The notes beneath the pieces were generated by a model, which was not told the DNA's origin, ran no database searches, and saw only the letters and a list, made by a program, of their open reading frames with translations. Shown piece after piece: positions 20,625 to 26,552 of a stretch of DNA of 64,000 bases. Each line of letters opens with the position of its first letter. Position 1 is the first letter of the stretch. This DNA is from Phycisphaeraceae bacterium D3-23 (lineage in GTDB: Bacteria > Planctomycetota > Phycisphaerae > Phycisphaerales > Phycisphaeraceae). The position numbers and the translations under genes are program-made. The stretch spans positions 744,001 through 808,000 of the forward strand of contig CP114179.1 in NCBI GenBank assembly GCA_039555135.1, read 5' to 3'.

Positions 20625-21041
20625 TTACGGGTGGTCGGGAGCGGGGTCGGTATTCGTTTCGTCGGCGTCGGTCACATCGGCGGCGGGGCCTTCTTCGCCG
20701 GTGCGTGCCATCGCTTCGCTGATCGCGTCGAAGATCTCGTCGGAGGTTTTGAGGGATTCGTCGAGGCGGAAGTCGAGGTGCGGGACGATGCGGAATGCGA
20801 CGAGTTTTTTGAGCTCGCCGTGGATGTGCCGGTTCGCGGCGCGGAGCCCGGCGAGGGTGCGTTTCTCGTACTGCTCGGGCAAGACGGAGATCAAGACCTT
20901 CGCGGTCTTCATGTCGGGGCTGACGTCGACCTTGGTGATCGACACCATCCCGCGGATGCGCGGGTCGGAGATCTTGCGCTGCAGCACCTGGGCCAGGGCC
21001 TTGCGCATCGTGGACTCGACTTGTTCAACGCGGTGGGTCAT
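20625..21041 (-). CDS. rbfA: Ribosome-binding factor A
   Basis: RbfA binds the immature 30S subunit and helps 16S rRNA 5'-end maturation, notably in the cold. The KH-like core is visible: HRVEQVESTMRKALAQVLQR, ISDPRIRGMVSITKVDVSPD, AKVLISVLPEQ, ANRHIHGELKKLVAFRIVPHLDFRLDES. The 138 residues include an acidic C-terminal tail. It follows infB, as in the common nusA-infB-rbfA order. The 92-base gap to infB holds an imperfect inverted sequence (from ATCAGCGGTCAGC to GTGATCACTGAT) of unknown meaning. Confidence 0.96.
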   Translation of the reverse strand: MTHRVEQVESTMRKALAQVLQRKISDPRIRGMVSITKVDVSPDMKTAKVLISVLPEQYEKRTLAGLRAANRHIHGELKKLVAFRIVPHLDFRLDESLKTSDEIFDAISEAMARTGEEGPAADVTDADETNTDPAPDHP

Positions 21042-21133: not shown

Positions 21134-23932
21134 TTAGTCCAGTGTCCGTTTCACTTCGGTGACCTTGTAGCAGATCAGTTCGTCGCCCTGCTTGATGTCC
21201 TCGAAGCCCGAGATCCGGATGCCGCACTCGGTGCCGGCCCGGACTTCCTTGGCCTCGTCCTTGACGCGGCGGAGGGTGTCGAGTTCGCGGTTCTCGGTGA
21301 CGACGACGCCGTCGCGCACGAGGCGCATCTTGTTGCCCTTGACGATCGAGCCGTCGGTGACCAGGCAGCCGGCGATGTTGCCGACCTTGCCGATCTTGAA
21401 GACCTCTTTGACTTCGGCGCGGCCGATCTCGTCTTCGCTGGTCTCGGGGGCGAGCATGCCTTCGAGCGACTGCTTAACCTGGTCGATCAGGTCGTAGATC
21501 ACGCGGTACATGCGGACGTCAACATGGCGCTGCTCGGCGATATCGCGGACGGCGGGCGTGATGCTGACATGGAAACCGAGGATGACGGCGTCCGACGCGT
21601 CGGCCAGGAGGACATCGCTCTCGGTGATGCCGCCCACCGCGCCATGGATGACGCGGACGGCGACCTCGTCGTTGCCCAGCTCGCCCAGCGACTTGCGTAG
21701 CGTCTCGACCGACCCCTGCACGTCGGTCTTGACGACGACGTTGAGGTTCTGGACCTTGCCGGCCTGGATGGTCGCGGAGAAGTTGTCGAGCGTGACCTTC
21801 GTGCGGGCGGCGAGGGCCTGCTGGCGTTCGTCGTCGCGGAAGTGCTTGGCGACGTCCTCGGCTTTTTTGAGGGTCTTGGTGATGTAGAATTTGTCGCCCG
21901 AGTCGGGCAGGTCGTCGATGCCGGACAGCTCGATCGGCGTCGCGGGGCCGGCCTGCTCGATGGACTTGTCGCGGTCGTTGGTGATGTCGCGGACGCGGCC
22001 AAACGCGCGGCCGATGGAGATGAAGTCGCCCACTTTGACCTGGCCGTCCTGGACCATGATGCGTGCGACCGAGCCGCGGCCGGTCTGCATCTCGGCCTCG
22101 ATGACGGTGCCCCGGCCCGGCCCGCCGTAGTCCGCGGTAAGTTCGAGGACTTCGGCCTGGAGGTCGAGGGTTTCGAGCAGGTCGGTGATGCCTTCTCCGG
22201 TCTCGGCCGAGGTCTTGATGACTTCGGTCTCGCCGCCCCAGGCGGTGGGGTTGAGCCCGTGCTCGGCGAGCTGGCCGTAGATCTCCTGGAGCTTGTTATC
22301 GTTGAAGCCCGGGAGGTCGCACTTGTTGACAGCGACGACGACGGGGACGCCGGCGGCCTGGGCGTGGCTGATCGACTCGACGGTCTGGGGCATGACGCCG
22401 TCGTCGGCGGCGACGATGAGCACGACGATGTCGGTCATCTGCGCCCCGCGGGCACGCATCGAGGTAAACGCGGCGTGGCCCGGCGTGTCTTGGAACACGA
22501 CAGTTTTTTCCTGGTCGTCCGAGCCTTGGATCGTGACGCGGTACGCGCCCACGTGCTGGGTGATGCCGCCGTCTTCGTGGTCGGCGACGTCGGCCTTGCG
22601 GATACGGTCGAGCAACGACGTCTTACCGTGGTCGACGTGGCCCAGAATCGTAACGATCGGCGGGCGGGGCTGGACATCGACGGCGACGCGGTCGGTGAAC
22701 TCCTGCTCGACCTTCTGCGCGGCGGTTTCGTGTTCTTTAACTTCAAGCTCGATGTCGTAATCGAGACAGATCTCCATCGCGAGCTCGGTTTCGATCGTCG
22801 AGTTGACGTTGGCCATGATCCCCTTCTTGAAGAGGAACTTGACGACGTCGGCGGACTTGATGCCGGTGGCGGAGGAGAGCGCCTTGATGTTGATGGGTTC
22901 TTCGACCTCGACCTTCCCGCCGGTGACGAGCGCGGACTGCGCGGCCTGGCCGATGTGTCCGGTCCGGCTGAAGTTCTGGCGTCGCTTCTTGACGTAGCCG
23001 GAGGCACCACGGAGCCGAGCGTCCATCTCGTCGATGTCGGCCTTGGACATCTGCTGCGGGCCGGTGAGTAGCTGGTCGTTGCCGCGCGAGCGTCGGTTGG
23101 AGAGCGAGCGTCGGCTGCGGCCGGACTTGCCGGCGGGCTGGGCCTGCTCGGGGCCGCGTTTGACGCCGCCGCCGCGTGCGGGGCCGCGCGAGCGTGTGAC
23201 GCCGTCGATCTCGCCGGAGGGCAGTCCGCCGCCCGAGCCCGAATCGCCGCCGCGGGGCGGGCGGGGGCTGCGTGAGCGCGGGGGCGCGACGGGGTCGGGC
23301 TTCTCGATCCGGATCACCTTGGGGCCGCGCATGGTCGCCTTCTTGGGCGTCGCGAGCTGCTCGCCGGCGGGCTTGATGACGTCGGGCCGGTCGGGCACGT
23401 TGACCGTCCCGACGGGCTGGGTCGGGCCGGCGACTTCTTCTTCCGCCGTGGGCGCGTCGGCGGCGACATCCGCCTCAGGCGCGGCTTCAATCACCGCGTC
23501 GGCGACGACCTCCGCCTCGGCCACAACGGGCTCGGCGGGTGTCGGGGCCTTCTTCTTCGCGGCCTTGGTCTTCTTTTTCTTCTTGGGTGCGGCCGGCGCT
23601 TCTTCGATGAGCGTCGCCGTATCGCCGCCAGCTTCCTCGGCGTCGTCTTTCTTTCCGGCGGCTTTCTTCTTCGCGGCGGGCTTCTTCTTGGCGGCCTTCT
23701 TGCGGACCTTCTTCACATCCACCTTCTGCGCCTGCTCCACCGCCGTGTCGTGGCTGTGGTCTTCCTCGGGCGCAGCGAACCACTGGCGGATCGTCGCCGC
23801 CAGGCCGAGCTTCACCACCGACATGTGGTTGGTGATGTCGGGCACGCCCTCGGCGTCGCACTTCTCGACGATCACCTTGCTCTTGACGCCAAGCTCCTTG
23901 GCGAGATTGTGGATGCGTAGCGTTTTGGCCAA
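21134..23932 (-). CDS. infB: Translation initiation factor IF-2
   Basis: IF-2 is the GTPase that positions initiator tRNA on the ribosome. An IF2-N domain opens the protein ([19 protein letters not shown]), followed by about 250 low-complexity residues rich in Lys/Ala and Arg/Gly/Ser, then a second IF2-N-like region ([19 protein letters not shown]), the G domain ([33 protein letters not shown]) and the C-terminal domains. The initiation codon appears to be TTG. The in-frame TTG at 23938 is only 1 base from the AAGGAG at 23940-23945, whereas the TTG at 23932 has ideal 7-base spacing and gives MAKTLRIHN, so I chose 23932. It is the middle gene of nusA-infB-rbfA. Confidence 0.96.
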
Positions 23933-24016
23933 AACCAAACTCCTTGGGGCTCAGGGCCCGCCGCTGACTGGCCCGGGGCACATGCCCGAGCGCTCACGAA
24001 TCATGTACCGTCTTTA

Positions 24017-25600
24017 TCAGGACGGCTTATTGTCTTGCGGGTCGCCTACGACGCCCGCGTCCGAGTCGGTGTGTTCCGCGACAAACTCGCTGCCGTCCTC
24101 ATCATCCGACGCCTCGGCCTGCTCGCCGATGTCCGCCGACACGGGGCCGCCCGCCTCGGCCTCGGCCACCTGCTCTGCAGGGACCAAATCTTCGCCTGGT
24201 TCGCCGTAGGCGCGGTGCTCTTCTCCAGCTTCGCCCGACGCGTCGTCGCCTTCGGGTGCTTCGCCGTCGCCCGAGGCATCGTCGCCCTCGTCGGCCGACT
24301 TGCCGCCGCCCAGCAGGTCGTCGAGCGCCCCGCCGCCGGCACCTTCGCCCGCGGCACCGCCCAAAAGGTCGTCGATACCCTGCGCCGCGAGTTCCATCTG
24401 CTCACGCTTGCGTTTCTCTTGCTCGGCCTTCTCCTTGGCCTGTTCCTCGGCCACGACCTTGGCCTTCGCCGAGACGACTTCGAGCATCTGGTCGAGCTGC
24501 TCCTCTTCGAGTTCCATCGTTTCCATCAGGAACTCGCGGCCGACCTCTTCGACGTCGAACAGGCTGATGACACCCAGAGCCGCCAGCTTGTCAGTCATCT
24601 CGTCGGTCACCGTGTCGATCTCGCGGAGCGTGGTCTCCATGATGTCCATCGACTTGGTGTATTCCTGGGGCGTGAGGATGTCGACATCCCACATCGTCAG
24701 CCGCGCGGCCAGCCGCACGTTCTGCCCGCGCTTGCCGATCGCCAGCGAGAGCTGGTCTTCATCGACGACGACCGTCGCCCGCCCCAGCTCGAAGCACAGC
24801 GAGATCTCGACGACCTCCGCCGGCTTGAGCGCGTTCTGGATCAGGATCTGGCTCGACTCGTTCCATCGCACAATGTCGATCTTCTCGCCGCCCATCTCGT
24901 CGACGATGTTCTTGATCCGCGAGCCACGCACACCGACGCAAGCGCCGACCGCATCGACCTTCGAGTCGATCGACTGCACCGCAATCTTCGTGCGGTGGCC
25001 GGCCTCGCGGGCCATGGCCTTGATCTCGATGATGCGCTCGGCGACCTCGGGGACTTCCACCTCGAACAAGCGACGGATCAGCTCCGGCGACGCCCGGCTC
25101 AGGACGATCTTCACCTGGTTGCCCGCGTCGCGGACGTCAAGGATCAGGCAGCGGACACGTTCGCCGGGCTGGTGCTGCTCGCCGGGGATCTGTTCGCTAC
25201 GGGGCATGAATCCTTCTGCGCGGCCGATCTGTACGACCAGCGAGCCGCCCTCGTAGCGCTGCGCGATGCCGGTCGTGAGCTCACCCACGCGGTCGATGTA
25301 TTCGTCGTAGATCGCGTTGCGCTCGTCTTCACGGAAGCGCTGGATCATCACCTGCTTCGCGGTCTGCGCGGGGATGCGGCCGAGGTCTTCGAGCTCGATG
25401 GGCTCTTCGCCCCGCCAGAGCCCGATCTTCCCGGTGAACCGGTCGATCTCGCAGGTAAACTCTTCGGTATCGACCGCGTTGTAGTGCTTGCGCGCGGCGG
25501 ACTCCATCGCCTGCTCGAGGTCGACGATCAGGACTTCTTTCTCGACATTGCGGTCGCGGGAGATCGCGTCGAGCAGGCGTAGCATTTCGGTGCCGTTCAT
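24017..25600 (-). CDS. nusA: Transcription termination/antitermination factor NusA
   Basis: NusA binds RNA polymerase and modulates pausing, termination and antitermination. Present in order: the N-terminal RNAP-binding domain (MNGTEMLRLLDAISRDRNVEKEVL), an S1 domain (YEGGSLVVQIGRAEGFMPRSEQ), KH1 (GACVGVRGSRIKNIVDEMGGEKIDIVRW) and KH2 (LSLAIGKRGQNVRLAARL). The C-terminus (about residues 395-527) is a long acidic, Gly/Asp/Glu-rich tail rather than the proteobacterial repeats. AGGAAT precedes the ATG. The usual upstream partner rimP is absent; instead a structured RNA with its own terminator ends 85 bases before the start codon. Confidence 0.97.
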   Translation of the reverse strand: MNGTEMLRLLDAISRDRNVEKEVLIVDLEQAMESAARKHYNAVDTEEFTCEIDRFTGKIGLWRGEEPIELEDLGRIPAQTAKQVMIQRFREDERNAIYDEYIDRVGELTTGIAQRYEGGSLVVQIGRAEGFMPRSEQIPGEQHQPGERVRCLILDVRDAGNQVKIVLSRASPELIRRLFEVEVPEVAERIIEIKAMAREAGHRTKIAVQSIDSKVDAVGACVGVRGSRIKNIVDEMGGEKIDIVRWNESSQILIQNALKPAEVVEISLCFELGRATVVVDEDQLSLAIGKRGQNVRLAARLTMWDVDILTPQEYTKSMDIMETTLREIDTVTDEMTDKLAALGVISLFDVEEVGREFLMETMELEEEQLDQMLEVVSAKAKVVAEEQAKEKAEQEKRKREQMELAAQGIDDLLGGAAGEGAGGGALDDLLGGGKSADEGDDASGDGEAPEGDDASGEAGEEHRAYGEPGEDLVPAEQVAEAEAGGPVSADIGEQAEASDDEDGSEFVAEHTDSDAGVVGDPQDNKPS

Positions 25601-25684: not shown

Positions 25685-25710
25685 AAAAAACCACGAGTCA
25701 AAACTCGTGG
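25685..25710 (-). terminator. Terminator of the nusA-upstream RNA
   Basis: The 8-bp perfect stem pairs 25691-25698 with 25703-25710, with a four-base loop. Six A on the plus strand (25685-25690) give a U6 tract on the minus strand. It lies 85 bases before the nusA ATG, so it would end transcripts from the promoter at 26012-26041 unless they are antiterminated. Confidence 0.9.
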
Positions 25711-26006
25711 CTTGAAGCATGGCGGCCGGCACTAGCCGACGGGCCCGGGCGATGACGCCGGGGCTACCAAACGGGATGCGGTCAGCACCTAGCCCAACGG
25801 CTGCACCTCCAAAGTGGGGGTAGCCGATCCGGCGAACGCAAGCCCCATCGTTGGGTCTTGGGCTCGTCGCGTGGGCGATGACAGGGAAGCGCGAAGATGG
25901 TGGGTGACCACCATCACAGCTCGCGGGCCTGCCGGTCTAGGGTGTGCTGCACATGCATACCATCTGCCTCAAGCAGTTCCACCGCGCCCGATGCGCGGTT
26001 TTGGAC
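25685..26006 (-). ncRNA. Candidate structured non-coding RNA upstream of nusA
   Basis: A unit of about 320 nt on the minus strand has a strong promoter (26012-26041) and a perfect terminator (25685-25710) but no plausible reading frame. Self-complementarity is extensive. A 5' hairpin pairs 25993-25999 with 25981-25987. A closing helix pairs 25965-25974 with 25710-25719 over 10 bp. An inner helix pairs 25924-25940 with 25732-25747 (one bulge, one mismatch). An isolated hairpin has an 8-bp stem (25896-25903 with 25908-25915) and a UCAC tetraloop. UCAUCGCCC occurs twice. I found no RNase P, tmRNA, SRP or known riboswitch hallmark; 6S RNA is a remote alternative. It could be a free RNA or an attenuated nusA leader. 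Confidence 0.55.
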
Positions 26007-26011
26007 CGTTT

Positions 26012-26041
26012 ACTGTAGGCCATATCACTGCGAATTGTCAA
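26012..26041 (-). promoter_or_regulatory. Promoter of the nusA-upstream RNA
   Basis: On the minus strand a perfect TTGACA (26036-26041), an 18-base spacer and TACAGT (26012-26017) predict a start near 26006, immediately before the first hairpin of the RNA. Confidence 0.75.
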
Positions 26042-26279: not shown

Positions 26280-26552
26280 ATGGCTCATTCCCTGAGTGCC
26301 AAGAAGCGTGCCCGCCAGAACGTCAAGCGCCGTGCCCTGAACCGGTGGCGCAACACGACCTACCGCTCGCAGATCAAGGACTTCCGCGAGCTGATCCTCC
26401 ACGGCACGGTCGAGGAAGCCGAGCAGAAGCTGCACGGGCTCTACAAGACCCTGGACCAGACGGCCAGCACCCCCGCGATGCACAAGAACACCGCGGCCCG
26501 CTACAAGAGCCGACTCGCCGCCCAGCTCAACGCCAAAAAGCAGGCCGGCTAA
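26280..26552 (+). CDS. rpsT: 30S ribosomal protein S20
   Basis: S20 is a small basic protein bound near the foot of the 30S subunit. The 90 residues begin with the family signature MAHSLSAKKRARQNVKRRALN and continue with the three-helix bundle (NTTYRSQIKDFRELI, AEQKLHGLYKTLDQ, KNTAARYKSRLAAQL). The length is normal. It is monocistronic: a promoter candidate lies upstream at 26146 and a stem-loop terminator follows at 26603. Confidence 0.95.
   Translation: MAHSLSAKKRARQNVKRRALNRWRNTTYRSQIKDFRELILHGTVEEAEQKLHGLYKTLDQTASTPAMHKNTAARYKSRLAAQLNAKKQAG

Follow-up and report, generated by a model that had tools for sequence, protein, structure and literature searches.

To our knowledge, how bacteria set the levels of initiation factors and of NusA has been little studied beyond a few model species. 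RimP is a ribosome maturation factor. Ribosome-mediated attenuators of the trp type combine a short leader peptide ORF carrying regulatory codons with a terminator and a mutually exclusive antiterminator. The rimP-leader is a conserved terminator found before rimP-nusA-infB, for which the available part of the original account reports no larger element and singles out NusA as the most promising candidate for its regulator (Naville and Gautheret 2010; PMC2965389). According to the available parts of further reports, termination occurs in S. agalactiae 31 nt past the start of an operon of the rimP-nusA-infB type (PMC4448216), and terminators before rimP have been described in E. coli (PMC6511841). 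Two other systems are relevant here: two-codon minigenes regulate axe-txe, LEE1 ler and other leaders (PMC8708949), and toiL, of E. coli topAI, is a uORF that reads general translation stress (PMC12121999).

Here we describe the leader of the nusA-infB-rbfA operon in Phycisphaeraceae bacterium D3-23, encoded on the minus strand of a stretch of 64,000 nucleotides that was analysed as a whole and is called the window. The leader is best read as new and as related to the published rimP-leader; it is probably a translation-coupled transcription attenuator of nusA-infB-rbfA. Its proposed anatomy (Table 1), comprising the ORFs, their coupling geometry, the Shine-Dalgarno (SD)/stop site, the covarying helices and the placement of promoter and terminator, is drawn from sequence comparison. 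The literature, searched mostly short of full text, yielded neither a description of this leader nor one of ORFs before nusA in Planctomycetota.

Table 1. Positions in the window of the features of the nusA leader and of the genes that follow it.
Feature	Position	Strand	Basis
Leader promoter TTGACA-18-TACAGT	26012..26041	-	sequence
5' hairpin ACCGCGC/GCGCGGT	25981..25999	-	mean pair probability 0.93
GAGG, Shine-Dalgarno of uORF1, within P1 5' strand	25967..25970	-	
P1 5' strand (uORF1 SD region)	25965..25973	-	fold and covariation
uORF1, 14 codons and stop (MHVQHTLDRQAREL*)	25914..25958	-	
P2 5' strand (uORF1 codons 3-8)	25937..25952	-	fold and covariation
P3 hairpin GATGGTGG-UCAC-CCACCATC, uORF1 stop/ORF X start	25896..25915	-	fold and covariation
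ORF X, 41 codons and stop, ATG overlapping uORF1 stop (TGATG)	25789..25914	-	
GGAGG, Shine-Dalgarno near ORF X end	25806..25810	-	
TTG-GGC-TAG: start, one codon, stop; ORF X frame; mostly ATG in relatives	25789..25797	-	
P2 3' strand (ORF X stop region)	25781..25792	-	fold and covariation
P4 region, two hairpins, ORF X stop to terminator	25725..25764	-	fold; matching segments covary in relatives
P1 3' strand, immediately before terminator stem	25711..25719	-	fold and covariation
Intrinsic terminator, stem CCACGAGT/ACTCGTGG, U6	25685..25713	-	stem pattern and fold; part 25713-25688 is the terminator match
nusA	24017..25600	-	named by sequence
infB (initiation factor IF2), gene after nusA	21134..23938	-	named by sequence
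rbfA (ribosome-binding factor A), gene after infB	20625..21041	-	named by sequence

The gene nusA was found in 46 of the 51 genomes of the window's family (f1). To these 46 leaders were added 40 from the order or class, chosen among the matches listed, and 30 from further families; two were dropped (L055 of f1, too short at 213 nt, and L109, at a contig edge), leaving 114 leaders from 25 families for comparison. In the window itself, the promoter and the terminator reported in the earlier note were both found again, as was the gap of 85 nt from the end of the terminator U tract to the nusA start at 25600. A sigma-70-like site heads 44 of the 45 f1 leaders, a count that is not independent because the leaders were delimited by the same site. 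A pattern search placed terminators ahead of nusA in 90 of the 114 class leaders, including all 45 of f1; the 24 others, L101 of f23 among them, had none by pattern. The absence of rimP from its usual place before nusA, also pointed out earlier, agrees with the genome having no RimP_N match. Indeed, no such match was obtained in any of 41 genomes (that of the window and 40 relatives; completeness is 90% or higher for 33 of the 41), and RimP_N was present in 10 of 14 control genomes.

Some observations concern the immediate surroundings of the leader. A short CAA(C/T/G)TNAATA element lies before nusA at 25643-25634 on the minus strand; the pattern, which was devised after the element had been sighted, occurs in the last 140 nt of 23 of the 114 class leaders against 0 of 114 for a control stretch. 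A genome-wide search for CAAYTNAATA, a form that the copy in the window does not fit, gave no match. The element resembles boxA-like nut sites. On the other side, rpsT (S20, named by sequence; 26280-26552, plus strand) diverges from the leader, as it does in genus relatives (L005-L008), and a conserved CGTATTATGCGC stretch is perhaps the rpsT promoter.

An attenuating leader that senses NusA was put forward as an attractive model in the earlier note. As far as attenuation is concerned the model fits, in that many families of the class show this arrangement ahead of nusA, and in that none of the 45 f1 genomes has a sigma-70-like site (at least 9 of 12 positions) between terminator and nusA. Sensing of NusA itself would make the terminator the sensor: NusA would boost termination and limit its own operon, and the ORFs would merely tune folding. 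The idea has been suggested for the rimP-leader, where the available text cites older E. coli work (PMC2965389), and, from RNA ends, for this operon in S. agalactiae (PMC4448216); moreover, the terminator sequence is similar within each group of families. We nevertheless consider it unlikely as the main explanation, for it does not account for the conserved reading frame, the overlapping start and stop codons or the SD-start-stop site. Ribosomes would be the more direct input, because the leader is organised around translation, with two coupled ORFs; both inputs could combine, and NusA is possible as a second one.

Contrary to the earlier description of the leader as having no reading frame, which was wrong, it contains both uORF1 and ORF X. 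Assignment of uORF1 was possible in 43 of the 45 f1 leaders, the exceptions being L016 and L054; its starts were set by eye and its stops were partly picked by their TGATGG context. It measures 15 codons in 24 of the 43 leaders, with a range of 9-18, and in all 43 its stop is overlapped by a start codon in one alternative frame, which opens ORF X. This start lies at offset e+2 in 35 leaders, a count that is not independent because TGATGG helped to pick the stop, and at e-1 in 36, and eleven other offsets gave 0-6. ORF X is 26-63 codons long in f1, with one case of 15. Because the SD-start-stop site was unassigned in six f1 leaders (L030, L045, L048, L053, L057 and L058), its frame was counted in 37; L045 does have ATGGCTTAG, yet it was removed by the distance filter, and the site was unassigned in the three leaders of g31 as well as in L053 and L057. 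ORF X terminates exactly at the SD-NTG-stop site in 34 of these 37 leaders, and in the other three (L006, L046 and L056) its stop lies 5-8 nt before the site, overlapping the ATG.

In 34 of the 37 f1 leaders, and in 22 of 25 genera, the uORF1 stop is separated from the site by a distance of 2 mod 3, a frame that is kept even though 21 different distances occur, from 41 to 185 nt. An open stretch of 20 codons or more is present in the frame of the site in 38 of 39 f1 leaders (Markov mean 24.5, maximum 32) and, outside f1, in 35 of 37 (Markov mean 20.4, highest of 200 runs 27); this control is lenient, because the other two frames also exceed it, being open in 26 and 32 of the 39 and in 27 and 29 of the 37. 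As judged from these relatives, it is position and not peptide that is kept in uORF1 and ORF X. A kept frame and stop position together with an unconserved peptide are as expected if the location of the ribosome matters.

Across the class, SD, ATG, 3 nt and a stop (k=3) occur in this order before nusA in 53 of the 114 leaders, where a Markov model gives a mean of 1.8. The form with the stop directly behind ATG (k=0) was found in 13 leaders (Markov mean 1.3), one of which, L052, has it outside the leader, and the form with 6 nt in 8 (Markov mean 1.9). One or the other of the k=3 and k=0 forms is present in 64 leaders from 15 of the 25 families; the out-of-frame spacings k=1, 2, 4 and 5 occur in 1, 4, 7 and 6 leaders, and the same site pattern in stretches farther upstream in 1-2 of 112. 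Several of the remaining 50 leaders have GTG, TTG or CTG starts, or three codons. In families f23, f24 and f20, uORF1 has 10-12 codons (e.g. MVLTGLANRAE) and ORF X begins, by eye, at a GTG inside the end of uORF1. Beyond the class, a start-stop site precedes nusA in 10 of 30 Planctomycetia loci, all within the 13 loci of family f43 (L178, L179, L182, L183, L185, L188, L191, L196, L197 and L199), as ATGTAA or ATGTAG behind GAGG/GGAG; the same pattern had no match in the remaining 20 loci. In a phylum-wide sample of 40 loci, five had the site, three of them as start-stop in f43.

In members of f7 (L128), f8, f15 (L114) and f17, the 3' end of an ABC-ATPase gene replaces uORF1, and inspection by eye showed similar gene ends in f12, f14, f16 and f19; GTG starts of ORF X behind the ABC genes were likewise set by eye. 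From sequence motifs, we take the ABC-ATPase upstream of the leader in L080, L083, L097, L114 and L128 to be MalK/UgpC-like, of the sugar type. uORF1 may be a relic of a sugar ABC-ATPase gene whose stop codon replaces it in other families.

Alternatively, the site that closes ORF X could be an independent minigene of one to three codons that parks ribosomes, the openness of ORF X being secondary. Several leaders speak for this: GGAG is kept in differing frames relative to ORF X in L011, L017, L018 and L044; ATG-stop is present in all six f23 leaders (one with an extra codon), in which ORF X, by eye, reaches ATGTAG or, in L095 and L108, ends 8 nt past it; and the three f1 leaders in which the ORF X stop overlaps the ATG are of the same kind. 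Two-codon minigenes are moreover known to regulate other bacterial genes, according to the part of the source available (PMC8708949). The frame rule of f1 nonetheless makes such independence doubtful, as 34 of 37 leaders have the site in frame with ORF X and closing it, and the g31 leaders end ORF X at this place although the site itself is unassigned. A stricter version, a minimal ORF alone without a longer one, was given up because the 2 mod 3 rule makes the site the end of a longer reading frame in the majority of f1 leaders.

The leader folds better than its shuffled versions (z -5.3; 0 of 100 shuffles equal it). Its outer long-range helix, proposed earlier, is borne out as P1, which in the MFE fold pairs 25973-25965 with 25719-25711 at a mean pair probability of 0.89; the UCAC-capped 8-bp hairpin (P3; pair probability 1.00) and the 5' hairpin were likewise predicted. 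The second long helix of the earlier note, 25924-25940 with 25732-25747, was not supported: its ensemble pair probability is at most 2e-5, and its equivalent in relatives covaries at control level (z -2.0, four controls ranging from 0.2 to -2.3). Taken alone, 25940-25924 with 25747-25732 forms a strong and almost complete duplex of 15 bp (-25.9 kcal/mol). It is incompatible with the MFE fold and may be an alternative structure particular to this species. The inner helix that does covary is P2, 25952-25937 with 25792-25781.

Compensatory change, which had been proposed as a check, was assessed within f1 by comparing native pairing with that of partners swapped between genera. None of 3000 swaps reached the native value for any of P1, P2, P3 and P4 (z -5.3, -5.0, -6.9 and -4.9, respectively). 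Control combinations gave z of -2.3, -2.0, -1.5 and 0.2, which shows a background in the method that is probably due to base composition. The windows for P2 and P4 were chosen from a scan of 2278 window pairs in the same leaders, and those for P4 overlap one another in short leaders. In a separate permutation of P1 over 43 leaders, 0 of 5000 reached native pairing. A further candidate, P1b, which would pair the uORF1 start with a segment behind the ORF X stop, was rejected (z -2.6, close to the controls).

A closed long-range fold between a promoter and a terminator is also what a stand-alone structured RNA would present, one lying before nusA by chance and perhaps binding ribosomes. We regard this as improbable. 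The same layout recurs before nusA in many families (nusA upstream regions alone were examined), and two frame-kept ORFs run through the fold; these ORFs, together with the absence of a second recognisable promoter behind the terminator in all 45 f1 genomes, weaken the option. Nor does the leader belong to a described RNA family as far as Rfam is concerned: the covariance-model search gave no match in the window at the gathering score, and permissive scans of the leader region and 20 related loci gave sub-threshold matches only, such as npcTB_6715, which was rejected (opposite strand, 16.4 of 72 bits, chance level). RNase P, tmRNA and SRP RNA were rejected as identities, the copies of this genome being found at other positions. 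For 6S RNA, the window genome had no RF00013 match, a miss that may reflect model sensitivity because only 5 of 14 control genomes matched.

Differences between relatives are spread evenly over codon positions, 51/71/47 in uORF1 and 125/118/136 in ORF X, counted from pairs with more than 60% identity that are not mutually independent. That ORF X encodes an ordinary small protein is very improbable: its open frame and end position are kept, but its codon positions are unbiased, and four examples had no Pfam match at the cut-off (best E 0.033), for which reason this identity was rejected. The even distribution equally fits untranslated RNA, and it is the frame argument that carries weight for the attenuator.

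For the proposed translation-coupled attenuator, a terminator/antiterminator switch in f23 and f24 and a modest effect of P1 in f1 are predicted on the basis of folding. Antiterminators were sought in 90 leaders as complementarity to the terminator arm. The 5' arm has a strong upstream partner in f23, f24 and one f18 leader, with z from -2.4 to -3.9 in 8 of 9; the exception is L095 (z +0.3), and the best duplex of L100 is with another segment. Beyond these families, z of -2.5 or lower was reached only in L010 (f1), L068 (f2) and L112 (f15), and in f20 no partner was found in four leaders. The predicted antiterminator lies inside ORF X in f23 and f24, and behind ATGTAG in the f18 leader L121.

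By partition function, the terminator probability in the eight unmasked f23/f24 leaders is 0.00, 0.00, 0.96, 0.00, 0.35, 0.04, 0.59 and 0.58. Masking the antiterminator (34 nt) brings it to 0.93-0.98 in all eight, a rise from 0.00-0.59 in seven; L100 fails this ensemble test, and L095 the duplex test. Such masking frees the terminator almost by construction, and the informative point in these models is the full or partial preference of most unmasked leaders for the antiterminator. A mask at the uORF1 start gave a clear change only in L116 (0.59 to 0.87).

For the 37 leaders of f1, a mask over the uORF1 start lifts the mean predicted probability of the three basal terminator pairs from 0.66 to 0.88, and masks at the uORF1 stop or the ORF X stop give 0.71 and 0.68. 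P1 overlaps only the lowest terminator pairs, and the terminator mostly forms anyway (mean 0.80 vs 0.93); in L006, L008 and L024 it forms less under the mask. The effect being modest, P1 may act with help or otherwise, and P1 and the terminator could stack on each other in the modelled fold.

We infer that ribosomes translate the ORFs, that the control runs in the direction described below, and that initiation capacity is the signal. Transcription would begin at the leader promoter; ribosomes would load on uORF1, stop at the codon overlapping the start of ORF X, restart on ORF X and finish at the SD, start and stop found 0-2 codons on. Under good translation the covered RNA could not pair with the terminator arm or foot, the terminator would form and the operon would be off. 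Under weak translation, especially weak initiation, the leader would fold on itself, through the antiterminator inside ORF X in f23/f24 or through P1 and P2 closing the leader in f1, and readthrough would yield more NusA, IF2 and RbfA.

A fuller reading, tentative and as a whole possible rather than probable, would make the leader a gauge of translation-initiation capacity, and of re-initiation and termination, without a specific amino acid or ligand. The ORFs would be kept for their ribosome start and stop sites and not for a product, with feedback on the IF2/RbfA/NusA operon; the SD-start-stop site, reduced to AUG-stop alone in some families, would keep the terminating ribosome in position while the polymerase moves on to the terminator; within Planctomycetota the scheme would be an old one, because AUG-stop sites are also present in the Planctomycetia family f43; and uORF1 would perhaps be the ABC-ATPase relic mentioned above. 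If true, a leader found across the class, with reading frames conserved for where ribosomes sit and not for the peptides, would offer a clean and testable sensor of translation capacity, and the widespread rimP-leader terminator would gain a translation-based relative. Moreover, the data suggest that one-codon and start-stop frames, usually missed by annotation, can be deeply conserved.

Compared with known systems, the leader shares with toiL a uORF that would sense general translation stress and not one amino acid; toiL, according to the available part of its description, works through the topAI ribosome site and Rho, whereas here an intrinsic terminator and two ORFs are predicted (PMC12121999). 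With the two-codon minigenes it shares an SD, an ATG, one codon and a stop within a leader, as TTG-GGC-TAG in the window. In the accessible portion of their account, minigenes act on the expression of the next gene via translation or mRNA stability (PMC8708949); here, in contrast, the site closes a longer ORF and precedes a terminator.

The likeness to trp-type attenuators lies in a short leader ORF with a predicted ribosome-binding site and a terminator, and, in f23 and f24, in a mutually exclusive antiterminator within the ORF, predicted by folding in 7 of 8 leaders, the effect in f1 being modest. Here, however, there are two overlapping coupled ORFs, the peptide is unconserved, regulatory codons for one amino acid are not evident, and the predicted sign is that translation leads to termination.

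The rimP-leader, as known from the available part of its description, likewise places a terminator in the leader of a (rimP-)nusA-infB operon, here before nusA, infB and rbfA, and other families of the class have a GTGGG..CCCAC-type stem followed by U, e.g. L080, L082, L102 and L127, a likeness seen without letter-by-letter comparison. Its stem motif is GGGc(...)gCCC followed by U, which the window stem does not fit; in f1 the stem is CCACGAG..CTCGTGG, and rimP is missing from the 41 genomes searched. In further contrast to the rimP-leader as described there, the leader of nusA in these bacteria is predicted to carry two coupled ORFs, an SD-start-stop site and four covarying helices.
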